Source of the DNA: an uncultured Eubacteriales bacterium
GTDB lineage: Bacteria > Bacillota > Clostridia > Oscillospirales > Oscillospiraceae
Length of the DNA stretch: 64,000 nucleotides
NCBI GenBank assembly: GCA_900317905.1
Contig: ONIN01000002.1
Span: 175,815 to 239,814, forward strand
Direction: 5' to 3'
Shown: positions 46,501-63,823 of the stretch, piece after piece
Position numbering within the stretch: position 1 is the first letter of the stretch
Layout: each line of letters opens with the position of its first letter
Made by a program: the position numbers and the translations under genes
Notes under the pieces: generated by a model
The model's database searches: none
Told to the model about the DNA's origin: nothing
Seen by the model: only the letters and a program-made list of their open reading frames with translations

Positions 46501-49291
46501 TTGTGTTTGGAGAAGGAGCCTCAATCAAATCCCTTGCCTTTGCAGCAGCCCTGTTAATGCGAGACTGCCGCTCAGCTTGATCGCCAAGAAGACCTATCAC
46601 TCTGTTGCTAAAGCCCTCGGGAACGACTTTTCGGATCTCGTTGAGTATTCTGAAAAGCCCTTTATACTTAGGATATGATGGGAAAAAGTGATCATAATCC
46701 TCAACAAGAGGTCCAGAAACCCCGTCAAGTGTATAGTCATATGCCTTTTGCGGTGCAAACATGGCAAGGCTGAACGCTGCAAGCCTCAACGGCTCATCAA
46801 ACTTGTCGTCGCTGTCAAACAGCGCAGACAGTTCCTCGCCCGTATAGTCGAAATCCTCCAACGGAATACCTGTGGCAGCCAGCAGCTTTCCAAAAAGGCT
46901 TATAGACAGAGGTCTGTCCTTGTTAAAGCTTGCAGCTCGAGCCAGCATTAAGGCATTCGCAAGCGCTCCATAGCGCTTGTCCTCCGCGTCCTCAACAGTT
47001 TGCTTGCTGAGCAAGAAGCGAACAGCACAGACAAGCTGTTCATCCGATGGCTTATCTTCATGAAGCAATCGGTCAAAAAGCGCCTCAGTCTGATCTGTCG
47101 GCGCAGTAGGCTCAGCGGGATCTCCTCCAATCGCAGCTTGATCCGGTGAGCCAGAATCCGACTCCTCGGCCTCCGGCGCCGGAGCAGCCTTTGCACTGCT
47201 CTCATCCTGTAGCTCCGTATTCCTTCCGCTCTGAGTTCCATCTGGGTCCGACTCTTCACCATAAAGTAGTCTCCACTTTTCACCGGTTCGACAGTAAACA
47301 CTGGAGCTGCGGAACAGGAGGACGCCTTCTGCGGCGTTTTCCGGCTCCCAGTTGAGATCAGCCGTCTTGTCACCAGCGAGGATTAGCTGATCACAATCCT
47401 CGGTATACTCGTCCGGAAGCACAACACGTAGACGCCGCCACTCACCCTCACAGGGCAGTTCAATACGGCAGGCACAGCTCTCATCTGTCTCCAGAGAAGA
47501 AATAATGTTTGAGAACTCCTTCACATCAATCCATCCGCTCAACGCAGAGAGAAATTGATATATGGAAACTGTGCGAAGACACATGCGCTGCAGATCATCG
47601 CGATCCATTTCCTGCAGGCCGACATATTTACAGCTGCCAATTCGCTGCTTGGAGCGGCGCTTTATCGCTTGGACGACACTGGCCTTATGAATACACGAAT
47701 AGCCATATTGCGTAAAGCAATACAGTACATCCTCTGCTCCGTTACAGCTTGTCACATATGCAGCGATAACACCCCTGCTCTCAAGGCTCTTCAGCACGCT
47801 GCTCTGCGCTACAGCTCTCTTTTCCTCCTCCTCATCCTTGATACCAAAAGCCAGCTTAGAGAGTGGAAGCAAAATAGACTCCGGGATAACGCCAAAATAG
47901 GAGAGCATCGTCACAAGCTCTGTTGCATCGCGCGGTGATCCCGATTTATCAAGATCAGAGAGAAAGCTATTAGCACCAGGCTTAGCGTTTTTGATTTTAT
48001 TCCGTGCACTGAGTGTGATTGCTGGGACGGCGGCCGGCTCCGCCTGCTCCTTGTTCTTAGGTGCAATTTCCTCGACCTCTATTTTTGCCAGCGCATTGGC
48101 GGACAGTACAGCGAAGCGAACGGAAGCAGACAGGTCTGCTAGGTCAAGTGCGTTAGCTAGCTGCTCCCGATCCGATTCGGACAAAGCTACAATTGTAACG
48201 GCGACATGCTCATTGGAAGCAATCATTCTTCTGAGGCGATAAACTTCTTCTCGCTCAGCACCCTGAGTAAAAAGACCGGCAGCAACATAGTGCGGAATCA
48301 ACTCGTCTGAGTCTTTGCTCCCTCGTTCTGCCCAACAAGCATACGGATAATCCTCAGCATCCTCCATGCAGATGAGATTGAGACCTTCCTTACGCTCGCA
48401 ATGCAGATGTATATAGCACTTGATCAGCCTAACACGGAGCAAAAACGCTTCTGACGGATGATCGGCGATCTGAGCAAAGGCATCCGGCAAAATGTCGACA
48501 TCAGAAAAAGGCTCCGCATTGAATTGGATTTCAGAAATATCCGGAATGCTTGGAGCTGCATTAATGAATCCGTCAAATGCATCCCAAAGCGGAAGCGACT
48601 CAGGCTTTGCTGGAGAAGGCTGCGGCGGAAGATCTCCCTCTGTGCCTGACGGGGAAGCTGCTGCGTTTGGAGAAAGCAGCTCACAGGAGCCATCGAGATA
48701 TTCAGACAGCTCCATGGACTCGTCGATGCTTAAATCACCTCGGTCGGTCGCGCGCGCAATCGACCGGCCAATCTGGCTCTCAATGGCATCATATATTTTA
48801 TCGGGAAGGCCTACAACCCCGGCTTTTACGTTTTCAACCACAAGACCAAACGGCTGGAGCTCATCACGAGGTCGCTCGCCCCGGCATACCTTCATAAGCA
48901 ACTGCTTGGATTCCTCAAGCTGTGCAATAACGCTTTCAACCTTAGTAGACAGCTTGAGATAGTCCAGCACGAGCTGCCGCTCTGCAATCATTTTTTGTCT
49001 GCTCTCATATTCAAGGATTGCATGCCTTACCGGCTCAATCCCAGCTTCAGTGTCGATTGCAAGAGCGTTTCCCGCCTCGCGAAAGGCTTGCAGCTTTTTC
49101 TTGTAGCCTTCAAGAGCGACAGAGAGAGCTTCTGCGACCTCAGAGGGAATGAATTTTCCCTTTTGAATCTCGCCTACAAGTTGCTCGGCATGTTCAAGAA
49201 CACCTGCTGTATCTGCTTGAAGCGCATCAAATGCTTCCTTGAAGCTGAGAAATAAACCGTTCTTCACAGGATTCCACACCTCATCGTTCAT
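43505..49291 (-). CDS. Giant 1928-residue protein with C-terminal AAA/STAND-like ATPase
   Basis: Residues ~1-240 are helical. A disordered acidic/Pro/Ala linker lies at ~683-745, dividing the protein into two halves. Residues ~1400-1560 are mixed alpha/beta. A P-loop ATPase follows: Walker A GGRQLGKTALL (~1571), Walker B LLLLIDEADSF (~1650), then a winged-helix-like C-terminus ending LRRRSFLNIIGLDSD. The nearest familiar ATPases are AAA_22/ExeA-like or STAND types. It overlaps the helicase gene by 11 nt and the HEPN gene by 4 nt. Confidence 0.7.
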   Translation of the reverse strand: MNDEVWNPVKNGLFLSFKEAFDALQADTAGVLEHAEQLVGEIQKGKFIPSEVAEALSVALEGYKKKLQAFREAGNALAIDTEAGIEPVRHAILEYESRQKMIAERQLVLDYLKLSTKVESVIAQLEESKQLLMKVCRGERPRDELQPFGLVVENVKAGVVGLPDKIYDAIESQIGRSIARATDRGDLSIDESMELSEYLDGSCELLSPNAAASPSGTEGDLPPQPSPAKPESLPLWDAFDGFINAAPSIPDISEIQFNAEPFSDVDILPDAFAQIADHPSEAFLLRVRLIKCYIHLHCERKEGLNLICMEDAEDYPYACWAERGSKDSDELIPHYVAAGLFTQGAEREEVYRLRRMIASNEHVAVTIVALSESDREQLANALDLADLSASVRFAVLSANALAKIEVEEIAPKNKEQAEPAAVPAITLSARNKIKNAKPGANSFLSDLDKSGSPRDATELVTMLSYFGVIPESILLPLSKLAFGIKDEEEEKRAVAQSSVLKSLESRGVIAAYVTSCNGAEDVLYCFTQYGYSCIHKASVVQAIKRRSKQRIGSCKYVGLQEMDRDDLQRMCLRTVSIYQFLSALSGWIDVKEFSNIISSLETDESCACRIELPCEGEWRRLRVVLPDEYTEDCDQLILAGDKTADLNWEPENAAEGVLLFRSSSVYCRTGEKWRLLYGEESDPDGTQSGRNTELQDESSAKAAPAPEAEESDSGSPDQAAIGGDPAEPTAPTDQTEALFDRLLHEDKPSDEQLVCAVRFLLSKQTVEDAEDKRYGALANALMLARAASFNKDRPLSISLFGKLLAATGIPLEDFDYTGEELSALFDSDDKFDEPLRLAAFSLAMFAPQKAYDYTLDGVSGPLVEDYDHFFPSYPKYKGLFRILNEIRKVVPEGFSNRVIGLLGDQAERQSRINRAAAKARDLIEAPSPNTTGLPGHRETLNECFGPDSVLGAAIRSVAEGRLSDRAFIEEVYQEYCKENGKISQSKIDEAIEEVWRKNRKHRTGLISKARTQVDNAFWDRLTVLKEWLDADYDSSQLDAAAVKNLRSRLVAEIDKVLPTLRKVPQESMPAVLYWMLQSIKAKLELKEPLRLHRFFSGILFTGIISMDDNGLPILDREMDAVKYYEPWRNVIRHTLTPQADSAAVAEAISLNPDSPLHDNYRQLRMLGVYYKSDSDEYLVDMEDIQRAKVAADASEKEFRQELENAYTYDRIGEADKERILALLDYKEFFYAREDFGCWRAFLYALGLQLSEIAETRRTSLQNRLERAKESLAEGDSDQLLRAAGEQLEKKYYSLAEEYLNRFDAGERELSPETNLLRNEEKTFEEFISPEIYNPIYSECSKKTNKGGNFRTFAKNYIAANFPSDWTSRYKEDARDLIGNWPIAKQSTTKENIEILLRLLGLDVQNVDKVKNSGKVEHYKATVRSSPRNKADYQHPISAFGTKIKNPVNVLVLFGKNDPGEIVSKVNNLNLGSNTIVFIDYPLSLNDRRLVAEYFHRSTSGQNTFLLIDQVLAIFLALKTSNERLPAMLKCTLPFTRYQPFVRDGGATSDDMFCGRVSELQTILDPQGACVVYGGRQLGKTALLQRAESLRSKPEDRHYAVYTVIYNLVSEAATASKIVEDINMKTNLRLAETDSLKDLASQISMRFKDGSIRSLLLLIDEADSFLDSISNTGYHQLQPLVDLKRETQNDFKFVLAGLHNVCRTRNATDRNGVFGQLGMPLCIKPLSGSDALQLISRPLMYLGFQVDRYPHLETILTNTNYYPGILQFFGYMLVQSVPSQYGEYFSATNGDPPFALEEKQLSAIMTSNDLNNSIKEKFRLSLKLDKRYFMLARVIAILYYEHDVPETSRDGFSKELILENAIDFGIHCLEDNDVTSIGNLLDEMVEMGILTRIEDTGGYCLRRRSFLNIIGLDSDSLLDEISAENEEDV

Positions 49292-51914
49292 AATAGTACA
49301 GATGCCTTAAGGCTCTGGTGCAGGCTACTACCTGCTGATTGGCCGTCATTCCGTCGGGCCAGACAAGCGCCTTCGAGAATTCAAGGCCCTTTGCTGCATA
49401 TACAGAGAAGCAAGAAGTAGTGCCATCCTTCTCCTCTGTCGAGCTTGTATCCAAATAATGCAACTGCGAGGCAGCGTCTCCAGCCTGATCGCAAAGCGTT
49501 TGAAAGGCTTGATAATCCTTCACAATAATTGTTAACTCAGAGGAAGCCTCCAGAAGCTGCTTCAGCTCGCCGGCAGATCGGATGACCGTCGGCCTTTGAT
49601 CTTCCTTGACGCGACCACACGCCTCCATCCTTGCACCGAACCGCTCCTTGATAAATTCAACAGTGGCCGGAGTGTTCCTATAGTTCTTATTGAGCTCGAA
49701 CACCTTCGGGATTCCGGTTTCCTTTTCCCATTGGCTAATGCCGCAGTCAACGTGAAGTGCCTGATCAATATCGCCGAACACATTAAACACTGCGTTGGGA
49801 AACAGCTCTCTAAGCGTTTCGTAGTCTGCCTCGTGAAGATCCTGACCCTCATCAATGCAAATATACTCGTAAGGAGGAAGCTCGTTTGCCTCGCTTAAAT
49901 ACATATATATGCGGAGGTAAAATAAGAGGTCTGATTTATAAAGGATTCTTGTTTCTCTGCGTCTTCCGCTGCCAAGCTCTTCAATATCAAGCGTTTTGAT
50001 TCCACACTGCTCCTTCAGAGGAGCAAGCGCATTCCAGATCTCACGTTCGAATACTGAGCTTTCAACACGACTCAAAAAATACCGAGACGCTTCCATAGCC
50101 TCAATTCGGGCTCGCGTCTGACTTCTTACGCTTTCGTCCTTCGTGTAATCCTGAAGCTGACGAATAATTTGCTCAATTCTCAGCTCCAAATCAGCAATAT
50201 GATTGTCAATGAGTTGAATCCGCTTTTCATTTTCGCTAATATCCTTTTGAATTGTCCTCTCAGTTGCATTTACACTTTTTCCTTTAGAAAAGGCAAGTAG
50301 CTCCTGCTGGCAAAGCTCAATATATCCACGCAAGAATTCAGTGTGCTCTGCATCTGCTCTGTTTTTCTCTCCCCATTCACAGGTTGCGCCCAAAAAGCGT
50401 GTTACCTTGACAAGATAATCGTTTACAAGTCCAATCGAGGAATAGTTGAGTCCTTGACTATTTAGCTGAGAGACCGCAGAATCAACCTCTTTCTTCAGAT
50501 CTTCGTTCTGAGCCTTCAGACCATCCGTCCAGTCGGATAGCTCCGCTTCTGCAAGGTCCAGATCATCGCGTAGCTTATCAAGCAAACGACTCCGAGAATC
50601 AAGCTCATCACGGCGTTGAAGTAAGCGCGCTTGCATTTTCTTTTGTACGATTATTTCTTTTTCGAGTTTATCTGCTTCCGCTCTCATCGCCGAATAGCGT
50701 TCATCCTTCGACCGCTCCTGCTCGCGAAGGCTAACGGCTGCAATTTCGCGCTCCAGCTTCTCTGTCAGCGACTGGATCACCGAAATCGTTATTGGAGCTT
50801 CAGGGACCGGAATATTAAGATATCCACACGCCTCATTCACGTAATTCGCAATAGAGCGAATGATTTCGGATCGGATTTTCTGTATGGTATCGCGGCTATA
50901 TACCTTCCTCAGATAGACATCGGGTAGATACTCCTCTGACAATTCAAATCGATACTGTCTGTTTTTAAATCGACTGTCAATTCTAAAAAGCAGCTCCCGA
51001 TACAGCTCGGCAATAGAAATGTTTGATACAGAGCTAAGTCGGAATCTGGTCATTAGCTCGGAGGAATAGCTCCGAAACAGCTGAGAGGGGGTGATTAGCA
51101 AAACCTTGTCCCAGCCATTATTGGAGAGCGCCGAGCGGAGGAAAAATAAACGATGAATCAAGCACTGACTTTTTCCTGAGCCGGCACAGCCCTGAACGAC
51201 GAAGGAGACTTTCTGCGGTGTCTGCACAATGCTGTACTGCTCCCTCTGGAGTGTTGCGATGATATTCCGAAGAACTGCACTTTCGCGGTTTTCATCGAGC
51301 CGCATAGCAAGGACGTCATCGAAGTCAATGACCTCCTCATCAAAGGTCAGCTCAGGGAAAAACTGCCTAACATCATGAAGCACCCGAGAGGAAATAGAAA
51401 CGTCCCTGATGATTTCTGGTACGTATGCTGTTTCGCTTCCGTCGCGATTTGTAATTGAAAACCTCGCTCCGTTTTTAGCTTGGTATGCGCCAAAAAGGGC
51501 AGTAAACAGTGCTCTCTGCGCGTCCTGCTTGAAGGGTATAATTAGCGCCTCGCCTGCTTCGCCATGCTCAATGGTTTTGATTTCATCCAAATCGGGACAA
51601 TCTGATAAGAGGCAATGGATAACATCCTTATCATCCGGAACAAACAGGCGAATATGTGAGAAATACGGCTTATTATAAAGGCTTTTAATTTCTCTTGTAA
51701 TTTGAAGCTGGTGTCGTCTCTGCTTGCTCAGATCACTGGCAAAAACGGAAACAAACTGAGACTCGTAGCCTCCGGAATCCAAGCTGGTTTTTGCCTGCAA
51801 AACCGCGCGATTGGATTTTTCCATCTCCTTTTGAAAGCTAGTGTAGACGCTCTCCTTAAGGGCTTCCTCTTCCGCTAAAAGCTGTTCCTTTGTTAGTCCA
51901 TTTGAAGAGGCCAT
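49281..51914 (-). CDS. HelD/UvrD-like superfamily 1 helicase with long coiled coil
   Basis: An 877-residue protein. Q-motif region and Walker A are IIATLQREQYSIVQ and VQGCAGSGKSQCLIHR (~240), like HelD. A ~230-residue coiled coil (~390-620, e.g. EADKLEKEIIVQKKMQARLL) splits the helicase core. Walker B is YICIDEGQDLHEAD (~684), with motif III GDIDQALH, motif IV LNKNYRN and motif V/VI VYAAKGLEF...VACTRALRHLYY. The N-terminus has a coiled coil of its own. First gene of the minus-strand operon; a TATAAT (51951-51956) lies upstream. Confidence 0.82.
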   Translation of the reverse strand: MASSNGLTKEQLLAEEEALKESVYTSFQKEMEKSNRAVLQAKTSLDSGGYESQFVSVFASDLSKQRRHQLQITREIKSLYNKPYFSHIRLFVPDDKDVIHCLLSDCPDLDEIKTIEHGEAGEALIIPFKQDAQRALFTALFGAYQAKNGARFSITNRDGSETAYVPEIIRDVSISSRVLHDVRQFFPELTFDEEVIDFDDVLAMRLDENRESAVLRNIIATLQREQYSIVQTPQKVSFVVQGCAGSGKSQCLIHRLFFLRSALSNNGWDKVLLITPSQLFRSYSSELMTRFRLSSVSNISIAELYRELLFRIDSRFKNRQYRFELSEEYLPDVYLRKVYSRDTIQKIRSEIIRSIANYVNEACGYLNIPVPEAPITISVIQSLTEKLEREIAAVSLREQERSKDERYSAMRAEADKLEKEIIVQKKMQARLLQRRDELDSRSRLLDKLRDDLDLAEAELSDWTDGLKAQNEDLKKEVDSAVSQLNSQGLNYSSIGLVNDYLVKVTRFLGATCEWGEKNRADAEHTEFLRGYIELCQQELLAFSKGKSVNATERTIQKDISENEKRIQLIDNHIADLELRIEQIIRQLQDYTKDESVRSQTRARIEAMEASRYFLSRVESSVFEREIWNALAPLKEQCGIKTLDIEELGSGRRRETRILYKSDLLFYLRIYMYLSEANELPPYEYICIDEGQDLHEADYETLRELFPNAVFNVFGDIDQALHVDCGISQWEKETGIPKVFELNKNYRNTPATVEFIKERFGARMEACGRVKEDQRPTVIRSAGELKQLLEASSELTIIVKDYQAFQTLCDQAGDAASQLHYLDTSSTEEKDGTTSCFSVYAAKGLEFSKALVWPDGMTANQQVVACTRALRHLYYYER

Positions 51915-52217
51915 AGGGGGTGTTCACCTACCCTTCATCATTTTTATTCAATTATACTACCGGAGTGACAATTATTCCAGTATCAACATAGACAAATAGC
52001 CGAAACACGTCGTAATAATCATAGATCTGCACCCCTGCAGTAATCACATAGCCATAGATATATTAACTAAAAAAGTTTTGAGCCCAAGGGCAGGATAGCT
52101 CTTGGGTGTTTTATTATGCTACACCCATTCACTATTACTATTTTTGCGGTTATAACCCAAAAAACTTATTGAATAATTGATGCTTTTGCGGTAATATATA
52201 GTAGCGAGGTGATTGAA
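51915..52217. other. Divergent promoter region with terminator-like hairpin
   Basis: No gene is seen. On the minus strand a TATAAT (51951-51956) precedes the helicase. On the plus strand TTGAAT (52169-52174), 17 nt, TAATAT (52192-52197) precedes the DUF4143 gene. Between them CCCAAG...CTTGGG (52083-52106) followed by TGTTTTATT looks like a plus-strand intrinsic terminator with no plus-strand gene before it. Confidence 0.6.
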
Positions 52218-53420
52218 ATGATAGACAGACCCTTGTATGTTAAGCAAATCATGGCGTATACGGATACGCCATTTATTAAGGTGCTTACCGGAGTGCGCCG
52301 GTGCGGGAAGTCAACAATCCTGGACATGATCATAGAAGCGCTTAAAAACGATCGGAATATTCCGGAGGAGCGTATCATCAGCTTCCGCTTTGACCTGCTC
52401 GAATACGAAGGCGCAACGGCGAAGGAGATCCTCTCAAAGATCAAGGCACGTCTTTCTCCAAACGGAAGAACATACGTGTTTTTGGATGAGGTTCAGGAAA
52501 TACAAGGCTGGGAGCGCATGGTGAATACGCTTGCCGTGGAATATAATGTAGATCTTTATGTGACCGGCTCAAACTCCCGTATGATGTCCTCGGAAATTTC
52601 AACCTATTTGACCGGGCGATATGTAGCATTTCGAATCTTTACGCTGTCCTTCTCGGAATATCTGCAGTTTAAGGCCAGCTACACAGAGCCAGGCTCGCCC
52701 CGGCAGGAGCTCGCGGAATATATTAGACTCGGCGGCTTCCCCGCTACGCATTTACACAGCTTTAGCCAGGATGAGGTTTATACTGCGGTTCGGGATATCT
52801 ATAGCTCTACGATTTTTTCTGATATTGTCCGGCGCAGTCAAATCCGTAAGGTTGATCAGCTGGAGCGCGTTGTAAAATATGTGTTCAGTCAGGTCGGAAA
52901 TACCTTTTCTGCCAAATCTATTGCAGATTATATGAAAGCTGAGCATCGGAAAATGGATAATGAGACAGTATACAGCTATTTGGAAAAGCTGGAGAGCGCA
53001 TATCTGCTGCATCGCTGCTCACGCTATGACCTGCAGGGAAAGAGCATTCTGAAAACACAGGAAAAGTTCTATCTGGCAGATACCGCGCTTCGCTACAGCG
53101 TGCTTGGCTACAATGCTGATACGCTTGCCTCCAGCCTTGAAAATGTGGTTTATTTAGAGCTGCTGCGTAGAGGCTATACTGTATATGTCGGAAAGGATGG
53201 CAATGCAGAAATTGACTTTGTTGCAGTGCGTCAGAACGAGAAGCTATACGTGCAGGTAACGCAGGAGATACGCTCCAAAGAAACCGAAAAGCGCGAGTAT
53301 GATCGTTTGCTTGCAATCCATGATAATTACCCGAAGTATGTTCTGCGCACGGATGATTTCGCAGGAGGAAACTACGAGGGCATACACACCATGCACGTTG
53401 CAGACTTCCTATTGGGATAG
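52218..53420 (+). CDS. AAA ATPase with DUF4143 domain
   Basis: A 400-residue protein of the AAA_14-DUF4143 family. Walker A is GVRRCGKST (residues 25-33), Walker B is YVFLDEVQEI (~92), and sensor-like VTGSNSRMM follows. The C-terminal DUF4143 part holds ADTALRYSVLGYN and a nuclease-like strand-turn EIDFVAVRQNEKLYVQVT (restriction-endonuclease-like fold). The family is widespread, and its function is poorly known. The ATG at 52218 follows GAGGTG. An 84-nt gap separates it from the DUF4338 gene, so it may be an independent cargo gene. Confidence 0.88.
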   Translation: MIDRPLYVKQIMAYTDTPFIKVLTGVRRCGKSTILDMIIEALKNDRNIPEERIISFRFDLLEYEGATAKEILSKIKARLSPNGRTYVFLDEVQEIQGWERMVNTLAVEYNVDLYVTGSNSRMMSSEISTYLTGRYVAFRIFTLSFSEYLQFKASYTEPGSPRQELAEYIRLGGFPATHLHSFSQDEVYTAVRDIYSSTIFSDIVRRSQIRKVDQLERVVKYVFSQVGNTFSAKSIADYMKAEHRKMDNETVYSYLEKLESAYLLHRCSRYDLQGKSILKTQEKFYLADTALRYSVLGYNADTLASSLENVVYLELLRRGYTVYVGKDGNAEIDFVAVRQNEKLYVQVTQEIRSKETEKREYDRLLAIHDNYPKYVLRTDDFAGGNYEGIHTMHVADFLLG

Positions 53421-53504: not shown

Positions 53505-55496
53505 ATGGATAGCAAAACAGCGGAGATCTTGGAGCCCTTTGAGCCGGACCTGGACATAGAGCACAGGGTTCTCTTTAAAGAACTCATAAGCAAGGTCGAA
53601 TCTGCTTACCCGCATTACAGGGGCCAGGTCATTCAAAAGGGACTAGAAGCATATTTGAGCTCAAGCCCTACAGAATCAATAGAAAGCATCAAATATATTG
53701 TTTCCTTAAGCGTTCTTATCGATTTAGCTCAGCAGGGATGGGGCTTTGAGGTCCATAACGAGTGCTTGATGCTGCGCCTCCAGGCAAACGAAGCATCTGA
53801 TAAGGATCAGGTGCGAAGCAGGCTTAGCTCCGAGCGGAAGGCACAGTTTTTGGATGCTTCTGTTGTGCGCTTCATCGAAAAAATGGAATCGGAGAAGCAG
53901 TATCAAGGGCGTACCATATCGATCAGAAGCCTTATTGGAGATTCAAGGGTTCTCATCAACAGAATAAATGGCGATCGGAATGGAATTGTAAAACCATACA
54001 TTCAGCTAGCAAGCCGTGCAAGGGATGAGCACACGGGCTACAGGCTTTCTGATATCTGGAGATATTTCAGATACACTTGGGCGATTCCCTATAAGACAAT
54101 GCCCGGGCGAAATTTATTTTATCTGGTTCGAGATGCATCGCAGCCATATCATCCTGTGATCGGTATTTTTGCACTGGGAAATGCGGTTCTCAATCTAACC
54201 GTTCGAGACGACGAGATCGGCTGGACAACAGATGCCATCGCGAGCAATCTGCGCCGTCGCGAGCAGGTTAATCATATGTCTCAGCCGCTTCGTAATACAG
54301 ACGGGCAAAAGACTGTCGGCGCTGTGGTCAAAAGATATCTGGAAACTGAGCAGGAGTACGCTGAACGCGTGAGCTCATACTCCGAGCGTACAATGAAAAC
54401 GCTCCAAGGCAATATTAAGTCTGCTATAGAGGATTTATATATCAAGGATCTTGGATACCACAGACAAACAAAAAATCCCCGCATAGAAAAGGTTTCCGAG
54501 CTGCGAACTCTCGCCGCTCAGCTTCGCACACAGGCAATTAACAACAAGAAAACAGCGCATATAGATGACTTTGAAAGCGAGGCCAAGGAAACTCTTTTTA
54601 AGAAAAAAAGAGCCGAAGAGCTTGCTCGTCTACTGGAGGCAACAATCATCTTCAACAAGCACAAGCAGGAGGATGCACTTCAATGGCTGAAGGAACTGAT
54701 GAGCTCAGAGGAGGGCAGAAAGGCAATTAACACCGCTCTGGTTGCAAACCGTAAAACAAAAATCGGATCTAATATGATGGAGATCATTGTATGCGGTGCA
54801 ATTCCTCCGTACAACGAGCTCCTTGGCGGGAAGCTTGTTTCTATTTTAGCCTGCAGCCCTCAGGTAATACGTGATTACACTGAGAAATATGAGCAGCAGA
54901 TAAGCGAGATCGCCTCCCGCATGAAGGGGAAAAAAGTAATCCGCGACAGCCGGCTTGCATTCCTTGGAACCACCAGCCTTTATGCCGTTGGGAGCAGCCA
55001 GTACAACCGGATAAACGTTCCGATGGCGGATGGCTTTCATCTGAAATATAAAAAAATGGGAATTACCGAGGGCTACGGGACGGTATATTTTTCAAAAAGA
55101 ACAACAGCCGCAATGATGAGGCTTCTAGAGCTGCAGGATGGCGGCAGAAGAATCAATAATATCTTTGGAGAAGGAACAAGCCCTAGATTCCGGCTAATTA
55201 GCAAGGGATTAAGTAGTCTTGGAATTAAATCGGACGCCTTCCTACAGCACTATTCTCCCAGAATTGTGTTCTCTATAGAGCTGGCAAAGAACACAAATGA
55301 GTTTCTGCGAGGAGAGACGACAACGCTTGATTTTCCATTTAATATTCATGATGAGCAGAGCGTTTTCGACAAGACACAGGAGCTAATTGACTTTTGGTAT
55401 CATCGCTGGCTCTTGAAAAGACTGGAGTCTGTAGATATTATTGGTCGTCTGGAAGGATTTGATCCTAATTCAATTCTAGTGAGCACAACGAGGTAG
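53505..55496 (+). CDS. DruA-like DUF4338 protein (long form)
   Basis: A 663-residue protein. Residues ~190-240 match the DUF4338/DruA pattern: NLFYLVRDASQPYHPVIGIF, then VRDDEIGWT. The C-terminal half continues with GAIPPYNELLGGKLVSILAC, TTSLYAVGSSQYNRI and YGTVYFSKRT, conserved blocks I associate with long DUF4338 proteins. DruA is a component of Druantia anti-phage systems, but DruB-E genes are absent. The ATG at 53505 follows AAGAGGGATAAT. The next gene starts 4 nt after its stop. Confidence 0.65.
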   Translation: MDSKTAEILEPFEPDLDIEHRVLFKELISKVESAYPHYRGQVIQKGLEAYLSSSPTESIESIKYIVSLSVLIDLAQQGWGFEVHNECLMLRLQANEASDKDQVRSRLSSERKAQFLDASVVRFIEKMESEKQYQGRTISIRSLIGDSRVLINRINGDRNGIVKPYIQLASRARDEHTGYRLSDIWRYFRYTWAIPYKTMPGRNLFYLVRDASQPYHPVIGIFALGNAVLNLTVRDDEIGWTTDAIASNLRRREQVNHMSQPLRNTDGQKTVGAVVKRYLETEQEYAERVSSYSERTMKTLQGNIKSAIEDLYIKDLGYHRQTKNPRIEKVSELRTLAAQLRTQAINNKKTAHIDDFESEAKETLFKKKRAEELARLLEATIIFNKHKQEDALQWLKELMSSEEGRKAINTALVANRKTKIGSNMMEIIVCGAIPPYNELLGGKLVSILACSPQVIRDYTEKYEQQISEIASRMKGKKVIRDSRLAFLGTTSLYAVGSSQYNRINVPMADGFHLKYKKMGITEGYGTVYFSKRTTAAMMRLLELQDGGRRINNIFGEGTSPRFRLISKGLSSLGIKSDAFLQHYSPRIVFSIELAKNTNEFLRGETTTLDFPFNIHDEQSVFDKTQELIDFWYHRWLLKRLESVDIIGRLEGFDPNSILVSTTR

Positions 55497-55500
55497 AGAG

Positions 55501-57057
55501 ATGGATAATCTTCAGTTTGTTCAAAGATTGTTTAATGGGAAAAACTGCTATTCGGATTCGATGACAGAGGAACAGCTTTCTCTGCTGCATATTGAATCCG
55601 GTGTCGAAGCAATCATTCGGAAAATGGTTTCTGAGGGGCGTATTGTCTTTCTGACGGGGAACCCTGGCGATGGAAAAACGTTCATCATAAAGGCTCTAAG
55701 GGAGGTGCTTTCGGATGTATATGTTGAAACAGATCTGAACAGCATTGCAGATAACGAGCTGGATATGGTTATGGAGCGGATTTATGATTGCTATAAGAAT
55801 AAGCGCCCCTGTGTTATTGCAGCGAATGAGTTTCCGTTTCACAAGCTGATGCTTCTATTTAAGAAGAATTATCCCGCTCTATATGAGGAGCTTAAGGGAC
55901 TCAAAAAGAACATTCTGGTTTTTGGGTATCCGACAGTGGAGCTAAAAAGAATCTGTATTGTAGACCTAAATGAGAGAAATTTGCTGGATAAGGATCGGTG
56001 TATCGTAAAAAAGGTGCTTGACTGCTTCACGCCCCTTCTGGAGCCATATTGTGGGAGCAACGCAATTCTTGCGCACAATGTGAATGCATTAAAAAATGTT
56101 TTGGTTCAGCAGCAGCTTTTGCATGTTTTCACCTTAATATCGCTGAGCGGTCAGCATTTTGTAATACGCGATATTTTAGGAGCGCTTGCCTATTCTCTTA
56201 TTTCCTGCACTGATCAAGATATTGACGACGCAGGCTATTACTATGACGCCTTTTTTACTGGGGAAAATGAGCTTATGCGCTTTGCGCGCCAGTTTGATCC
56301 TGTACTACTGACAAGCCCAGAGCTGGATGAAAGGCTATGGAACGGGGAGATTCTGGATGGCTGGCAGCTTGATTGCCCTTCCAGCTGGCCAGCAAATATA
56401 ACTAGCGGCGCTGGCTCCGTGGAGGATGCGCTGGCACTGTTTAGGTCAATAAAAAGAAAGTTCTATTTTGAAAATATATACGCAAGTGCTCTTAACGAGC
56501 TTCAGCCCAGAGACCTTCAAGAATGTATCCGCATTCTTCAAACCATTCAGCAGGACGCACTCAGAAACAAGCGTATGCTGATCTTTTCAATGAACAAGCT
56601 GTTTCTCTCTACTGATGAGGAGCGCGATAAATTAAGAGTATGGACCTCTCACAGCTATGACCTTAGCAGAACCCCCGGCGCAGCCGTATCGACCAGATAC
56701 ATTGATTCCGATGATCTGGAGCTTGTTTATCCGGCCCCGGTATCATGGCTGAGTGAAATGGAATACTCTCCTGCGTATATTGTTTTAAGGAGCAAGAACC
56801 ATCAAGAGGCAAGCCTCGACATTGATATTGATATGCTTCGAGGACTGATCATGATTAATAACGGATACCCTGCAGCCCTCCTGTCGTCACAATATGAGCA
56901 GGTAATATCGCAGTTTGTTAGGGCTCTCTGCTCGGTTCACATAGATAGAAGCTATCAGGACGGAACTATTATGATTTCGGACCGAAGAGAGGGCACAGTA
57001 AAGAAAATTCGTATAGAGGCTGATAAATACTATCTTGGGAGTGAGGTGAGCTACTGA
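55501..57057 (+). CDS. P-loop ATPase resembling DndF/DptF
   Basis: A 518-residue protein with Walker A LTGNPGDGKT (residues 53-60). A likely Walker B is the CVIAANEFPF strand (~107), and ICIVDLNERNLL follows. The size, position and the next two genes match the first protein of the DndF-DndG-DndH restriction module, but I cannot score similarity without a profile search. Its stop overlaps the next start (TGATG). Confidence 0.6.
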   Translation: MDNLQFVQRLFNGKNCYSDSMTEEQLSLLHIESGVEAIIRKMVSEGRIVFLTGNPGDGKTFIIKALREVLSDVYVETDLNSIADNELDMVMERIYDCYKNKRPCVIAANEFPFHKLMLLFKKNYPALYEELKGLKKNILVFGYPTVELKRICIVDLNERNLLDKDRCIVKKVLDCFTPLLEPYCGSNAILAHNVNALKNVLVQQQLLHVFTLISLSGQHFVIRDILGALAYSLISCTDQDIDDAGYYYDAFFTGENELMRFARQFDPVLLTSPELDERLWNGEILDGWQLDCPSSWPANITSGAGSVEDALALFRSIKRKFYFENIYASALNELQPRDLQECIRILQTIQQDALRNKRMLIFSMNKLFLSTDEERDKLRVWTSHSYDLSRTPGAAVSTRYIDSDDLELVYPAPVSWLSEMEYSPAYIVLRSKNHQEASLDIDIDMLRGLIMINNGYPAALLSSQYEQVISQFVRALCSVHIDRSYQDGTIMISDRREGTVKKIRIEADKYYLGSEVSY

Positions 57058-58544
57058 TGCCTAGAAGCGATACGCTTGAAGAGATTGGAAAGGCTCTTTG
57101 TGCCAGCCTTCATTTTAATCCTACATCAAATTCTACCAAGCCGCTTTATGTAGCAAACTCTCTGTTTAGAGCATGCACTGGAATAGAATGTGATCTCAGG
57201 GATATTCATGAATGGATTGTCAGTGAGAGAAGAGCAAAAGCGGCCTCCTCAGAAAGCATTGTTCAGAAATACAGCGATGCACTGATTCCGTCGGGTGATG
57301 AGCTTGCCGAGGATGTAAAGGAGCTACGCTTCTACCTTGAAAAGCTGTTTAATCCTGATTCAACCGTTTACCCAAGCTATCAATTCTCCGTATTAAATAT
57401 TCCGTCGAAGTGGCTTGTCCGATCCTATGTTAAGGAGGAGGCAGGGATCGGAGATTTCCTTTACAACATTCTGAACACTCCCATAGACAATCGGATTTCC
57501 CCCGCAATCGAGGTAATTAAGGCAGCTCTGGCGGATGACGATGATGATCTGAGCCGAACAATAAAGCCCTTAATTGCATACAAGCCGGAGGCAGAGAGGA
57601 TAGTGTACAATGAGACCTGTGAGGAGCTGCGTCCACTCAGTGATTCCGAGCTTTTAATTCGAGCCGGCTTTGACAGGCTGGCCAATAGCTGCAATGCTTA
57701 TAAGGAGAAGAAAGGAGAAAGCTCGCTCATTACACTTAGACGCATGGTATGCTTTTCTATGTTTGCAGCCTTTTTCTTCCTTGAGGATGTCAACCGCTCT
57801 ATGTACAGCGAAAAAAGAATACCTCTGCTTTTAGATGCCAGTGAAAAACGCGGAGCTGTTTCTCGTGCAAGCGAGCTGTGCTTTATTGCCTGCAAAAAAT
57901 CCGTCGAGAGCTATACGATTTCTTTTATTGCTGACTGGCTTACTAGGGAGCAGGTAATCACTGATCTAGACTCCGAGGAGGCATGCCTAAGATATATCGC
58001 AAGCGGCTTTAGCTTGAATGACAAGAATGAAGAAAGGCATGCCAGAGAGGTCATCACACAGCACATCACAGCAAACTGCAGGGCCGGCGACTCTCCCCTT
58101 ACCGCGACCGCTAAGGCGCTTCAATTCGCAATTTATACCTATACCTTCCCGAATACGACCCCTTCTGATTTCTGCAATGTTCTTGGAGGAAAGACCGGAC
58201 TGGTTGGTCCAAGCGGAAACGCAGCTAAATATAAGCGCTTTTTGATAAATCGATTTCTTCTGGAGACACTGGTGCTGAGCTGCGTCGATGTTCAGACGCT
58301 TGAGGACGGTATGGAGCTCCGCGAGCTCGGAGAAGCGCTGCGTAACAGCTACAATATTCTAATTGGGACAAATACAGATATAGATTACGCGGAGCTGGAC
58401 AGCTATGGAATAGCCGCCTCAACTCCGGAAAACCTTCGTGGAGAGCTCTCAGATAACGCAAGAAGAATTGCTGATATGCTGATATCCATGGGACTTGCGA
58501 AGCGATACGCGGATGGCGTTACGCTCGTCGGCTGGGAGGCGTAA
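57057..58544 (+). CDS. Unrecognised helical protein between two ATPase genes (DndG position)
   Basis: A 495-residue, mostly helical protein with no motif I recognise; it begins MPRSDTLEEIGKALCASL and ends ISMGLAKRYADGVTLVGWEA. In order and size it occupies the place of DndG/DptG. Two hydrophobic patches (MFAAFFFLED; LLETLVLSC) are too short to be clear membrane spans. The start overlaps the upstream stop and the next gene begins 4 nt after its stop. Confidence 0.6.
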   Translation: MPRSDTLEEIGKALCASLHFNPTSNSTKPLYVANSLFRACTGIECDLRDIHEWIVSERRAKAASSESIVQKYSDALIPSGDELAEDVKELRFYLEKLFNPDSTVYPSYQFSVLNIPSKWLVRSYVKEEAGIGDFLYNILNTPIDNRISPAIEVIKAALADDDDDLSRTIKPLIAYKPEAERIVYNETCEELRPLSDSELLIRAGFDRLANSCNAYKEKKGESSLITLRRMVCFSMFAAFFFLEDVNRSMYSEKRIPLLLDASEKRGAVSRASELCFIACKKSVESYTISFIADWLTREQVITDLDSEEACLRYIASGFSLNDKNEERHAREVITQHITANCRAGDSPLTATAKALQFAIYTYTFPNTTPSDFCNVLGGKTGLVGPSGNAAKYKRFLINRFLLETLVLSCVDVQTLEDGMELRELGEALRNSYNILIGTNTDIDYAELDSYGIAASTPENLRGELSDNARRIADMLISMGLAKRYADGVTLVGWEA

Positions 58545-58548
58545 AAAA

Positions 58549-61500
58549 ATGAAATCTCTTCTAACAGAGGCAATCCTTCAGATTGTCGCAGAGAAACAGA
58601 ATAATGGCTTTGGAATATCAATTGTTAATCTTCCAGATATTGATTTCGACCTTTTTTTGAGCAAGCTGAGGTCTACGGAGAAAACGGAAATTTTTTATCT
58701 GGGCTATGATGAGGAGCAAAATGAAAGCCTTCGTACACAGGCTGCACCCTATGTAAATGTTTCTGTATTCTTTTCCGTTGAGGAGGCAGAAAGGTCTCGG
58801 AACCTTGGCCAGGAGGATGTTTTTCGAATCCACTTTATCAAGAATACAGAGATGGAGAAAATATCTTCCTTAAGATGGTATAACGAGATTGACATGGCAG
58901 CTGTTTATAAAAAAAGCTGTAGGCTTGCCCAGGAACGCCTTACGCGCAGCAATGCGACCATTAACGAGCTTCTTGCCGCGTTGGCACGTAAGGACATCCG
59001 TACAATCCTCAACTTTGATAGAGTGCTGGATTATTTAGAGGCGCTTCTCGCAGCGCCGGATGCAGAGCTTCCACATGCGGTATCTAACGAGCTATATAGG
59101 CTCGGCCTGCTTTCGGATGCCAGCTTTGGAGTTGGAAGCTCGACGAGAGATCAGCTGAGAGATCGAATAAAAAGAAACCATGCGCTTGTTCTCCGCATTT
59201 CCAGTCTCGAGCAAAAGGAACGCCAAAATATTGCTAATTATTCCTCCAGAAACCCTGACAACACTGTAGTCAGGCTGATATTGGACTATTATCGTCGCCC
59301 ATCTCTTGAGCTCCTGAAGCAGATGGAGCTCTCCGAGGTTGAGTCGTGTATGAAGGCGGCAGCAGCCACGGGAAGACCTTCGCGGCCTGCTCGACGTGCC
59401 GGCAGCAATCCTACTGTTTCAACGGCTCAAATGATATTTGATGGAAACGAGAAGCAGGTTGATCAGTTTTTATCAAAAGCAACGGAGATTATCGATAACC
59501 GACCGGATTCCAATAAAAGCGAGATCAAAACCATTGAGATTGATGATGTCAGAATTGACATTCCAGTGCAGGTGACCACAGAGCGGCTAGCTGAGATGCT
59601 CAAGGATGACACACAATGGGGCGGTGTGATTTATGCTGATGTTGCAAGCCCAAAGGAAGCAATTGATAATGCCGAAAAATACGATTTTGAGCAGTTCGAC
59701 GGAAGCTTTATTGAGCAAGCTAAAGAGTATTTAAGGCGTGCGGCAAGCTTTCCGGAGGCCGCAGTCGCTGCAAATGCAGTCCTGAACGCAATAAGCGCCC
59801 TTGAGGAGACGCGGAAACTGCTGTATCCTTTTAGAAAGCGCCTGCAGGATATGCCAATGCTGCAGGTTGTATCTCAAAGCAGCACCTTTTCTGCATATTT
59901 ACACGCATATGAGCAGCTGCTGTCTGTGCTTAAGGAGCATTTTAAGGACCTGTATGATCTAGACAGCGTAGGCGCTAAGGATGTTGTCAGCACACTTCTG
60001 TCGCTCGACATGGTATATGTGGTTGGAAAAACTAATTCTCACGCCATTCCAACTCCACTCAATCCTTTATACTTGTGGAAATACACAAAGCTTGCGGAAG
60101 AGATGCTCAGCTCTCGCGGTGTTCCCGAGGGCGGAGACTGCTATCTTTCGGAAAAGGACAAGGAGTTTATTATTCGCAAGGCAGAGGATATCCCGGATCC
60201 TCTAGCTCTGGTAATGCTCCCCAAAAACGAGGTTTCAAGAACAGAGTGTCTTCCCTATGCTGGGCGTATCGGAGCCATCCCGGTATATTCCACAAAGCCG
60301 CAGATTAGTGATAGTGGACTGGGACTCGATGCGGTCAGGCAAAGCATTACGCGCTATATGTGTCTATATCCACACTCGAGCATGATGCTTCGCGTCAGCT
60401 TTGTTAATCCGCCCTCTGTGGAGGACGTGGTACGAATGCTGAAAAGGCTTGACAGCGATAGAGAGTTTGCTTCATTTGGCGATGTTGGAATTGACCTGAC
60501 AATTTACCGGACAAAGGAAACCTCGCCGGATTGGATAGAGCTTGAGGATAAGTCGCTGAATGAAGGGATGCTCGGTAAAATCAGAGGTAAAACGCAAAGA
60601 ACGTTTTCTCTGGCAATAAAGAACAAGTGCCTATCCTATCCGGAGATTCTGAAGGCCATTAAGCAGGATCAGCATATTGTTGTCATCTTTGACCCGAACG
60701 AAAGAGAAATCGACCTCGCCAGAAATGACCGCAGCGTTCACCTTCATCCGCTGTGTGTTCCGAAGGTTTATGAGTACAACAAGATGCGTGGAGATGTTAA
60801 AATCCGCGCTGCAAACGAGGGCGGTATTTTTGCAGATTACGCCAGCATTATTGAAAAGCTATATGAGCAACCGTCGACCTTCGGTCATCGAAATGTGTTC
60901 ATGAATTCTCCCTTGAAGAAGGAGACCTATGAAGCACTGCTCAAAAAAACAGATTGGCTTGTGATACTGGATCAAAATCTGAAAAGCTGGGATGTATCTC
61001 TTCAATCAACGGGAGAGAGGCTGTTTTATAAGAGCTCAGACTTCCGCTCAATTGGGATTTATTCTAAAAATACCAGAAAATTTGCGATTGGCTATCAGGA
61101 AATCATTGCAGAGGCTGGGAATTATATTCCAACAGACTCTGGCGTAGAAGGGCTCATTTCAGCAACCCGTGCAATCAATGATGATGGACTGCTGAGTATT
61201 GTTTCACACTCAACGAATCAGATTTTCGATCAGAAGCATGGAAAAGGGAGTCTTGGGCTTGCAATTACTGCCATTCAATACTCCCAAGAGCATCCCGACG
61301 CTATTCTTGTTGGCCTCGATACACAGCTTGCACGTGAGTGGCTTGCTGACAGAGATGACGGAAGGCTTCCGGATCTGATTGGAATCAGGCTTCCAGAGTC
61401 AGATGACTATCCCCCAATCATTGATTTGATTGAGGTAAAGACCTATCAGGCGTATAGTATTACGGATGAAGGCGTTATCTCGGGAGACGCTGTGGAGCAG

Positions 61501-63123
61501 GCGTCTGTGCTGGAATCGCTTATCCTTGAGATGTTCGGGAAGAGTGAAAAGATCACCACTGTCTCTCGAAGAGAAATCCTACGCGAGCAGGTATTTGAAT
61601 GCCTGTTTAGCAATGTCTCCTATGGTCCGAGCAAAACAGAGCACCTAACGAAGCAAATGAACGGCTTATTTGCAGGAGAGTATTCCGTCTCAATCAATAG
61701 AATTATCTCTCATGTTGATTTTACCAGCTCAGACAGCGCCAAGCACGATTGCAGGGATGAAACAGGAAAAGCATACCAGCTGTCCATCATCGGGTCTCAA
61801 GATATTCAGAGAATCATCTCAGGGCAGCAAGCAGAAGCGTTTCCTGCTGAGAGAGAAGCAGCGGCAGCACCTGCTCAGCGCGAGGCAGAAGGCCAGCCGC
61901 AAGAGCATACAGCGGCAGACACCGATAGCCGTCCTGCAGCACATCCTGCCTCTGGTATGGTAGACAGACAGATAACCAATGTGCCAGCTGCAGCTCCGCA
62001 GGCTCCAGATATTGAAGCTCAGGAGCAGGAGGCAGATGAGGAGCTGCATGAGAAATGTGTCCGTCTAAATGTCGTGCTAAAGAGCTATGGCATTCAGGCG
62101 TTCCCCGTCGATCAATCGCTTGTGCAGCAGGCTGCGCGCTTCACGCGTTTCAAGCTGGAGCTAAAGCCAGGCGAGACGGAGGCGAATCTGAAAAAGAGAA
62201 GTGAGGATATTGCGCGAGAGCTAGAGGCTGCAGGAGAGGTGTTCATTGGAAGAATTAACGGCACCCGGTATATCGGGCTTGATGTACCGTTCTCTGGAAA
62301 CAATAAGCCGCTTCTGCTTTTAGAGCATCTAAACGCGCTTGACGATGCGGATGGAGCGCTAAGCATTCTGGCCGGTCAAACTCCCGATGGAGAATTCAAG
62401 ATTATTGATCTCGCTAAGGCTCCTCATATGCTGATCGCCGGTACAACGGGTTCGGGAAAAACAATTTTCCTGTACTCTATCATCGTGAGCCTCCTGCATC
62501 AGTATTCTGCTGACGATTTGGAACTGCTGATAGTTGATCCCAAGCAAACAGACTTTCATTTCTTTGAGGGGCTTCCTCATCTGAGGGGTGGGCGCGTGCT
62601 GACGGATGCCGAAGAGGCTGTTGCAGCGCTGGAGGCCATAAATGAGGTTGACAAGGTTGAAAGAACTAATCTCATTAAGTCCTTAAACAGTCGGGACATT
62701 GAGTCCTATAACGCCAAGTGCCCGGAAAAAAGGATGAAACGCCTTGTCGTTGTGATTGATGAATATGCGGACCTTGTTCAAGCTGCAGAACTGCAGGGCA
62801 AGGAGGTTCGAAAGACCTTCGAGTCTAATCTTTGCATGCTTGCTCAGAGAGTCCGCAATTTGGGAATTCATCTGGTCATTGCGACACAGCAGCCTCGAGC
62901 GACCATTGTGACCTCATCGCTAAAGGCTGTACTCCCGTTTAGAACTTCCTTTAGGCTTCCATCTCATACGGATTCTCAAACTATTCTTGATCGATCCGGT
63001 GCAGAGGATCTGCTTGGCAAGGGCGATATGCTGATGCTTACAGATAGCGACCTAATCAGAATGCAGGGCTTCTTCATCCCTGAGGACGAGCTCATCAGCT
63101 TTATTGACACTAGGAAGGAATAA
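58549..63123 (+). CDS. Giant FtsK/HerA-type translocase with internal PD-(D/E)XK-like nuclease motif
   Basis: A 1524-residue protein starting at the ATG at 58549 after GGGAGGCGTAAAA. Residues ~920-1010 hold a nuclease-like block: LPDLIGI (~942) and IDLIEVKTYQ (Glu962-Val-Lys964). An Ala/Glu/Pro-rich linker spans ~1091-1164. The C-terminal motor has Walker A IAGTTGSGKT (1298-1305), KQTDFHFF, Walker B VVVIDEYADL (~1403), and FtsK-like IATQQPRA and RSGAEDLLGKGDML blocks. Size and architecture resemble DndH/DptH. It probably moves along DNA as a hexamer. Confidence 0.75.
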   Translation: MKSLLTEAILQIVAEKQNNGFGISIVNLPDIDFDLFLSKLRSTEKTEIFYLGYDEEQNESLRTQAAPYVNVSVFFSVEEAERSRNLGQEDVFRIHFIKNTEMEKISSLRWYNEIDMAAVYKKSCRLAQERLTRSNATINELLAALARKDIRTILNFDRVLDYLEALLAAPDAELPHAVSNELYRLGLLSDASFGVGSSTRDQLRDRIKRNHALVLRISSLEQKERQNIANYSSRNPDNTVVRLILDYYRRPSLELLKQMELSEVESCMKAAAATGRPSRPARRAGSNPTVSTAQMIFDGNEKQVDQFLSKATEIIDNRPDSNKSEIKTIEIDDVRIDIPVQVTTERLAEMLKDDTQWGGVIYADVASPKEAIDNAEKYDFEQFDGSFIEQAKEYLRRAASFPEAAVAANAVLNAISALEETRKLLYPFRKRLQDMPMLQVVSQSSTFSAYLHAYEQLLSVLKEHFKDLYDLDSVGAKDVVSTLLSLDMVYVVGKTNSHAIPTPLNPLYLWKYTKLAEEMLSSRGVPEGGDCYLSEKDKEFIIRKAEDIPDPLALVMLPKNEVSRTECLPYAGRIGAIPVYSTKPQISDSGLGLDAVRQSITRYMCLYPHSSMMLRVSFVNPPSVEDVVRMLKRLDSDREFASFGDVGIDLTIYRTKETSPDWIELEDKSLNEGMLGKIRGKTQRTFSLAIKNKCLSYPEILKAIKQDQHIVVIFDPNEREIDLARNDRSVHLHPLCVPKVYEYNKMRGDVKIRAANEGGIFADYASIIEKLYEQPSTFGHRNVFMNSPLKKETYEALLKKTDWLVILDQNLKSWDVSLQSTGERLFYKSSDFRSIGIYSKNTRKFAIGYQEIIAEAGNYIPTDSGVEGLISATRAINDDGLLSIVSHSTNQIFDQKHGKGSLGLAITAIQYSQEHPDAILVGLDTQLAREWLADRDDGRLPDLIGIRLPESDDYPPIIDLIEVKTYQAYSITDEGVISGDAVEQASVLESLILEMFGKSEKITTVSRREILREQVFECLFSNVSYGPSKTEHLTKQMNGLFAGEYSVSINRIISHVDFTSSDSAKHDCRDETGKAYQLSIIGSQDIQRIISGQQAEAFPAEREAAAAPAQREAEGQPQEHTAADTDSRPAAHPASGMVDRQITNVPAAAPQAPDIEAQEQEADEELHEKCVRLNVVLKSYGIQAFPVDQSLVQQAARFTRFKLELKPGETEANLKKRSEDIARELEAAGEVFIGRINGTRYIGLDVPFSGNNKPLLLLEHLNALDDADGALSILAGQTPDGEFKIIDLAKAPHMLIAGTTGSGKTIFLYSIIVSLLHQYSADDLELLIVDPKQTDFHFFEGLPHLRGGRVLTDAEEAVAALEAINEVDKVERTNLIKSLNSRDIESYNAKCPEKRMKRLVVVIDEYADLVQAAELQGKEVRKTFESNLCMLAQRVRNLGIHLVIATQQPRATIVTSSLKAVLPFRTSFRLPSHTDSQTILDRSGAEDLLGKGDMLMLTDSDLIRMQGFFIPEDELISFIDTRKE

Positions 63124-63127
63124 AGAA

Positions 63128-63823
63128 ATGCAGACGGTTGATATGTCAAGGTGCATAGAAGGAATCTTTGTTCAGGAGCTAAAAAATCGGTTCCTTTGTG
63201 AGGTGCTTATTAATGGCATATCAACTGTTTGCTATGTACCGTCCTCCTGTCATCTAGGCAATTTCTTAGTGCTTAAAGGAAAAAAAGTGCTGCTTTTGCC
63301 TACTGTCACACCTAACGCGAGAACTCGATACTCATTATTCGCAATTCCATTCAAGCGAAGCTATATTCTGCTCAATACATCAATAGCAAATTATGCTGTT
63401 TTGGAAGGTATGGGCAGCAGAAGACTTTCATTTCTGGGAGCAAGGAAAAATGTGCTGCCCGAACACGCTATAGATGGGTATAAGGCAGACGCTTTTATTG
63501 AGGATACCAAAACAGTGGTTGAGATCAAAAGTGTTCTCTCCGTTGAAGAAACCGCCTTCTTTCCGACGGTATATTCAGAAAGAGCCATTCATCAATTAGA
63601 AAAGCTTCAGGAGCTTATGGAAGCCGGCTATAATGCCCACTTTATTATTGTTGCATTAAATCCTTACATTAAGCGAGTCAGAATTGTTAGAGCCAATGGG
63701 CTGTGGGATGTTTTGAAGCCCTGTATCGACTCCGGCATGAAGGTGTCAGCATTTGTGTGCAGGTTAAGTGCTGAAGGGGTAAAGCTTGGTCATAATATTC
63801 CAATAGAGTATCAAGACAATTAG
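63128..63823 (+). CDS. SfsA-family nuclease, last gene of the operon
   Basis: A 231-residue protein matching SfsA over its length: an N-terminal OB-like part (NRFLCEVLINGISTVCYVPS), NARTRYSLFAI, NTSIANYAVLEG, then the PD-(D/E)XK core KADAFIEDTKTVVEIKSV (Asp and Glu-x-Lys) and FFPTVYSERAIHQLEKLQEL. SfsA proteins are annotated as DNA/RNA nucleases with poorly known roles. The ATG at 63128, 4 nt after the FtsK-like stop, follows AGGAAGGAAT. The location makes it a likely nuclease effector of the system. Confidence 0.8.
   Translation: MQTVDMSRCIEGIFVQELKNRFLCEVLINGISTVCYVPSSCHLGNFLVLKGKKVLLLPTVTPNARTRYSLFAIPFKRSYILLNTSIANYAVLEGMGSRRLSFLGARKNVLPEHAIDGYKADAFIEDTKTVVEIKSVLSVEETAFFPTVYSERAIHQLEKLQELMEAGYNAHFIIVALNPYIKRVRIVRANGLWDVLKPCIDSGMKVSAFVCRLSAEGVKLGHNIPIEYQDN

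Follow-up and report, generated by a model that had tools for sequence, protein, structure and literature searches.

Rakesh, Aravind and Krishnan (2024, PMC10853773) described DndFGH as a counter-invader system that stands alone; their account places DUF4338, called GNAT there, among the N-terminal fusions of DndF and reads the fused domain as a co-effector. SspFGH damages DNA without phosphorothioate (PT), host DNA included once the mark is missing, and DndFGH is reported to harm its host likewise without PT modification, according to excerpts of PMC8092258. Here we analyzed a 64,000-nucleotide stretch (the window) of contig ONIN01000002.1 from an uncultured Eubacteriales bacterium, which carries a five-gene operon, druA-F-G-H-sfsA. 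We infer, as the more probable reading on balance, that this operon encodes a PT-independent restriction complex directed against foreign DNA; that the system has a role in restriction at all is very probable.

Five open reading frames (ORFs) on the same (+) strand occupy window positions 53505-63823 in the order druA-F-G-H-sfsA (proteins DruA or A, F, G, H, and SfsA or S), with the following features.

53505-55496, + strand: druA, first gene, 663-aa DruA/DUF4338 protein (Pfam, PADLOC, conservation, AlphaFold)
54744-55313, + strand: DUF4338 domain of DruA, residues 414-603 (best Pfam stretch)
55501-57057, + strand: DndF-like P-loop NTPase, 518 aa (hhalign to canonical DndF)
55654-55680, + strand: Walker A motif TGNPGDGKT of F, residues 52-60 (conservation in 63 homologues)
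57057-58544, + strand: DndG-like protein, 495 aa (hhalign to canonical DndG; model match to 7exx)
58549-63123, + strand: DndH-like nuclease/FtsK translocase, 1524 aa from the ATG, TTG 58495 also being open (hhalign, Pfam)
61318-61440, + strand: D924, D942 and E962-x-K964 of H, PD-(D/E)xK nuclease site by motif (homologue conservation)
62440-62463, + strand: FtsK Walker A motif GTTGSGKT of H (motif, homologue conservation)
63128-63823, + strand: system-type SfsA nuclease from ATG 63128, TTG 63104 also being open (Pfam; adjoins H or A in related loci)
63488-63529, + strand: D129 and E140-x-K142 of SfsA, numbered from TTG 63104 (homologue conservation)

A and F are separated by 4 nt and F and G overlap by 1 nt, while G and H, and likewise H and S, are 4 nt apart if H starts at ATG 58549 and S at ATG 63128. 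Purine-rich sequence resembling a ribosome-binding site lies just 5' of all five starts used, and the starts given by the ORF finder, TTG 58495 for H and TTG 63104 for S, are probably not the true ones. The initial annotation, made from the sequence, had described five tightly packed, lower-GC genes joined by overlaps or 4-nt gaps, and ORFs, junctions and base composition (G+C of 0.415-0.476 in the operon versus 0.607 in window 1-34000) confirm that description. It had also named a DruA-like DUF4338 protein first, a P-loop ATPase with GNPGDGKT, a 1524-residue FtsK translocase with an internal E-x-K and an SfsA-type nuclease last, all of which were borne out. The first product matched Pfam PF14236 (E 4.3e-37) and PADLOC DruA1 (PDLC00001; E 1.4e-133 over residues 57-657), F has the Walker A motif, H has that length from its ATG, carries E962-x-K964 and matched FtsK_SpoIIIE (E 9e-34) and, above cut-off, FtsK_alpha, and S matched both SfsA (E 2.4e-13) and SfsA_N (E 2.2e-7) above cut-off.

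To place the middle three genes, profiles from related loci were compared by hhalign with those of loci bearing dptF, dptG and dptH (L106 and L110-L116, giving 8, 7 and 8 canonical sequences for F, G and H). F matched canonical DndF at 99.7% (E 8.6e-26, 449 columns), G matched DndG at 78% (E 1.7e-5) and H matched DndH at 99.7% (E 1.7e-25, 903 columns, within columns 463-1463), with all six off-diagonal controls of the trio at 1.8% or less. The AlphaFold model of G (pLDDT 92) had the solved DndG, 7exx, as its top match in the PDB (probability 1.00, E 3.1e-3), the second-best match having a probability of 0.07. By these sequence and fold comparisons the middle three genes are members of the DndFGH family, in F-G-H order, as the initial annotation had proposed; its description of the helical third protein as unrecognised no longer holds, the DndG fold being recognisable. 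PADLOC models gave weak matches of F to SspF (1.8e-11) and DndF (2.5e-8), a weak match of G to SspG (5.2e-8) and a match of the FtsK part of H to SspH (1.5e-64). G had no Pfam match up to E 1, and no relatives of it were found in 148 other genomes searched.

Motif residues of F and H are conserved. The Walker A motif of F is kept in 62-63 of 63 homologues at eight of its nine positions (P55 in 57 of 63), and A107-x-N109 is kept in all 63; a Walker B with Asn in place of Asp is a feature of DndF according to part of PMC10853773, and by our placement N109 of F would be the Walker B residue. D924, D942, E962 and K964 of H (942, 960, 980 and 982 in ORF numbering) are kept in 52-53 of 53 homologues and are identical in the window and in three H proteins from haloarchaea. 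The FtsK Walker A residues G1316, G1321 and K1322 (ORF numbering) are kept in 46/46, and 7 columns of G are invariant in 39 sequences. Taken as a whole, H has the make-up of a target recognition domain, inactive methylase and restriction endonuclease with a HerA/FtsK ATPase, the first two of these not being resolved singly.

The initial annotation had seen no Dnd modification gene, and this was upheld for DndC, which had 0 matches in the window's own genome (79.6% complete). Among 31 carrier genomes, DndC scored above cut-off in one, and there were 4 weak matches at 26-38 bits. We scanned neighboring proteins with PADLOC (E 1e-10), covering 88 of 189 proteins of at least 230 aa (larger ones up to 771 aa) from loci other than near-copies and plasmids; among the 25 of 53 families listed, none was DndA-E or SspA-D. 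The list has a single PbeA entry, a helicase of L032 with a far better fit to a type IV restriction model, and three entries of mad2. The scanned operon and other island proteins had no match to Ssp modification genes. The SspE model matched 0/33 genomes, a search with no positive control on which we place no weight. In a phylum sample of 398 genomes, the window's included, DptF matched in 3, two of them above cut-off. Conversely, 10 places with canonical loci or DndF, covered by 11 sequences (205 kb), have neither DruA nor SfsA. The locus shares a homologous restriction trio with DndBCDE-DndFGH, and matches to SspF, SspG and SspH models with SspABCD-SspFGH. It differs from the former in the DndC results given above and in having DruA and SfsA, and from the latter in that SspA-D are missing from the families listed for the 88 scanned neighbors.

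Standalone DndFGH (PMC10853773) is a further related system. It shares the F-G-H order, the F Walker A, the DndG fold, and the nuclease motif and HerA/FtsK motor of H, with FtsK-alpha as in its clade 2; it too is decoupled from PT genes, and DUF4338 is fused to DndF in some members. Unlike it, the window operon has a separate, full-length DruA and a dedicated SfsA, a name with 0 occurrences in the main text of that paper, whose gene lists may contain such loci. We found no report of the five-gene set or of an SfsA subunit in the open-access literature, supplements not covered. The initial claim that no system with this exact set had been described therefore stands for the SfsA subunit, as far as that literature goes, and does not stand for standalone DndFGH and the DUF4338-DndF fusion, both published in 2024.

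We then examined gene order around DruA. An alignment search with DruA alone kept the best 80 (79 loci) of 257 relatives in genome contigs, so that the set leans to close relatives of the window; viral contigs added 7 DruA loci and plasmid records eleven, two of these from one plasmid. With iterated profiles, A, F, G and H occurred together in 59 of 98 sequences, the window included. FGH lies on the opposite strand in L091, leaving 58 colinear A-F-G-H loci that span Bacillota to haloarchaea. The order is not due to chance, for dozens of loci show it although DruA was the sole query. Near copies (L047/L048/L094, L051/L052, L011/L045) reduce the number of independent cases. In many loci A and F overlap, abut or share one ORF, the shared ORF being about 1200 aa long. 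The presence of S could be judged in 54 of the 58 colinear loci, the other 4 ending too near H, and S was present in 31 of them: 27 of 28 Bacillota copies (window included, L034 the exception), the single Spirochaetota copy, 2/2 viral contigs, and 1 of 23 copies of other named phyla. This last, L052, is binned as Muribaculaceae; over the aligned columns its DruA and SfsA are identical to those of the Lachnospiraceae L051, and it may be misbinned. By the initial annotation's own criterion, homologues without a conserved neighborhood would have counted against it; other species too have the five-gene set, and the proposal stands on this point.

Several of these loci have features of their own. 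Complete A-F-G-H-S operons lie on two IMG/VR contigs classed as viral, L094 and L095, and the aligned DruA and SfsA of L094 are identical to those of Muricomes L048. At 9983-15114 of L057, DruA is joined in one ORF to 44 residues of F and to the C-terminal half of H, which holds nuclease and motor, with SfsA next; a minimal fusion of natural origin, a deletion or an assembly error may each account for it. L109 (9790-18774) is an FGH-like locus whose H, at 1042 aa, leaves no room for the nuclease and motor region, with a protein that is ParA-like by eye and then another protein 3' of H. A two-gene ABC-3C-type unit (CTD11 and DUF2326) lies just upstream of fused A-F in L047, L048, L055, L061, L068 and L094.

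S carries an OB domain and PD-(D/E)xK residues as in the SfsA DNA/RNA nuclease family, with D129 and E140 kept in 33/33 homologues and K142 in 32/33, the exception, L020, having a short S. It falls below the NCBIfam equivalog cut-off of TIGR00230 (56.1 versus 126.45 bits) and is encoded in this operon, a second sfsA lying elsewhere in the genome. One could suppose that SfsA is a passenger housekeeping gene outside the system, as its presence in 1 of the 23 copies outside Bacillota and Spirochaetota and its absence from the Bacillota copy L034 would allow. We consider this improbable. The separate sfsA of the window's genome scores 175 bits, whereas the copy in the operon scores 52, and the two proteins are 23% identical. 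In the 398-genome sample, moreover, operon-type SfsA (at least 289 bits; next SfsA score 103 bits) was confined to DruA carriers: it was found in 3 genomes, all among the 4 with full-length DruA (>600 bits), and in two further genomes the match to DruA was no more than partial (143-145 bits). In the fourth DruA genome, G359 (fused A-F, G and H), S could not be judged because the contig stops 317 bases after H. This sample overlaps the locus set and so is no independent test, since the two SfsA genomes besides the window's are judged to be those of L021 and L033. On plasmids, the operon type of SfsA had a single weak match, a gene annotated as sfsA. The operon SfsAs are thus, judged by their sequences, a subfamily separate from housekeeping SfsA.

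The position of S also varies. Besides loci with S 3' of H there are four with S 5' of fused A-F (L064, L066, L067 and L071) and one with S convergent to H (L021), and in each place it adjoins A or H. In a quick SfsA tree (231 columns, support by SH-aLRT alone), split and fused core types were mixed, the starred branches forcing at least 3 changes for the fused group; L038, a DruE1-DruA-SfsA locus without FGH, paired with L073 at a support of 96. Since the tree mixes core lineages, sfsA appears to have moved between them yet kept its place, which suggests that the gene was probably exchanged between core lineages and speaks further against a passenger. It is likely that SfsA is a working subunit of the system.

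In an alignment of 53 DruA sequences 44 columns are invariant, and the AlphaFold model of DruA has a mean pLDDT of 90. The model had no PDB match with E < 1; among the 50 listed of its 92 weak PDB matches, all with E > 1, nine are acetyltransferase entries by title. In BFVD it matched two uncharacterised giant-virus proteins, A0A3G4ZXG3 and A0A5K0UAJ3 (E 6.6e-10 and 4.7e-7). A sequence search of the PDB gave a single match that is not credible (E 0.31), an internal duplication was rejected (0.4%), and there was no match to DruA in a phage collection.

One role proposed for the N-terminal domains fused to DndF, in the sections of PMC10853773 cited above, is that of a back-up effector. As a GNAT, DruA would then acetylate proteins or other cell molecules and, should restriction by FGH fail, kill the cell or bring it to a halt, which agrees with the reading of DUF4338 there as a GNAT co-effector and with the acetyltransferases among the weak matches. 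We regard this as rather unlikely. Between the window and haloarchaea, DruA is better conserved (34-38% identity) than H (28%) or G (21-23%), F not being in the comparison. DruA also pairs with DruE1 or with an HATPase protein, and so with quite different partners, which a sensor or specificity role fits better than a spare toxin. Its occurrence in every counted locus is no evidence either way, because the search itself used DruA.

These other partners were seen in 30 DruA loci without FGH, listed by hand and some cut by contig ends, in which cluster names rest on example proteins. An HATPase-cluster protein was present in 22 of the 30, in 21 as the immediate same-strand neighbor 5' of DruA, and a DruE1-cluster helicase in 13. 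The HATPase partner (PF13589, MzaB-like by one example) occurs in L007-L009, L058, L062, L065 and other FGH-less DruA loci, and the pairing suggests another type of DruA system. With the rows as labelled, presence and absence of FGH change places 4 times on a DruA tree of 83 rows, some of these changes being due to cut contigs; short rows, the second A of L033, and L012, L013, L014, L046, L057 and L100 are not in the tree.

DruA of the window is of the long type and matches the type I model, and the locus might accordingly be a fragment of Druantia type I with DndFGH and SfsA as mere defence-island neighbors. A DruE1-cluster gene does lie near A-F-G-H in 8 haloarchaeal loci, 6 of them with the gene divergent from druA and 2 with it on the far side of H (L004, L005, L010, L011, L037, L040, L042 and L045), 7 of which also have the DruD-like cluster c3; these are possibly Druantia/DndFGH hybrids. 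For the window, a Druantia fragment is very unlikely. DruE1 had 0 matches in its 79.6% complete genome and matched 0/19 Bacillota/Treponema carriers at E 1e-80 (L038 does have DruE1), models of DruB, DruC and DruD matched none of F, G, H and S up to E 1 in a PADLOC scan, and A and F overlap, abut or form one ORF in many loci.

A further alternative is that DruA, as an enzyme of GNAT fold, modifies host DNA and so marks it. Together with FGH and SfsA it would then make up a full restriction-modification system, with a mark other than methylation or phosphorothioation and with a DruA marking module shared with Druantia type I. Phage Mom is a precedent for a DNA-modifying enzyme of this fold. By profile comparison, a Mom-like DruA was not established: the best of four ranges reached 14% (E 0.0019, 33 columns) and the others 2% or less. 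We consider this alternative unlikely. A Mom-like DNA modification gene (phrog_1384) was observed near the DruE1 gene on the haloarchaeal plasmids L005 (4450-4950, E 4.2e-13), L010 and L011.

Returning to the PT-independent restriction complex, we propose that G and the central part of H would bind target DNA, that the FtsK motor of H would move the complex along it, and that H would nick it, whereupon SfsA would cut or degrade the nicked product; F would gate the reaction via nucleotide binding. DruA, replacing DndABCDE or SspABCD, would keep the complex off host DNA or switch it on during infection. Because SspFGH, and reportedly DndFGH, harm hosts that lack the mark, a PT-free FGH needs some other restraint or trigger. 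The chief candidate within the operon is DruA, whose gene comes first and in many relatives is fused to that of F. Whether DruA is a licensing or sensing factor we judge to be evenly balanced.

Some observations weigh against this proposal. About 460 N-terminal columns of H, the region tested for an inactive SWI2/SNF2 domain, lie outside the DndH alignment. With the single canonical locus L106 as target, F reached 96% in hhalign and G (0.5%) and H (3.3%) were not significant, and the sequence match of G to DndG is modest. SspB, SspC and SspD were looked for in local scans only, and none is among the matches listed there. S was present in 0/11 haloarchaeal, 0/3 chloroflexal, 0/1 actinobacterial and 0/3 proteobacterial judgeable copies, and is therefore not essential to the core. 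Finally, the role of DruA is one that we infer, as no PDB structure clearly matches the fold of its model.

The operon lies in a low-GC island. The drop in G+C starts near a large serine recombinase gene at the island edge (36314-38470, - strand), whose product has a C-terminal SpoVT_C domain (E 2.8e-38); the contig stops at the right edge of the window, so the region 3' of S is not visible. Two adjacent AIG1/dynamin-like GTPases (38705-41090, +) follow, the second weakly matching LeoBC. A three-gene operon at 42366-51914 (-) encodes a 380-aa protein with a weak HEPN match, a 1928-aa protein with a C-terminal AAA domain and an 877-aa UvrD-like helicase with weak GajB matches; no PADLOC model matched the 380-aa and 1928-aa proteins, and the operon is possibly a further defence system. 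Just upstream of druA, at 52209-53420 (+), is an AAA_14/DUF4143 protein that matches the PADLOC candidate PDC-S01 (E 7.5e-152) and has no match among neighbor proteins of other loci at E 1e-3. Promoter-like and terminator-like sites were no more frequent than chance, and there were no Rfam families in window 34000-64000 at gathering thresholds.

The locus raises the question of what protects the hosts of a PT-free FGH, given that the PT-linked version harms an unmarked host. DruA gains a second, simpler setting, a unit of four or five genes that lacks the helicase DruE, and SfsA, whose Pfam name is still "sugar fermentation stimulation", gains a role in defence that can be tested.

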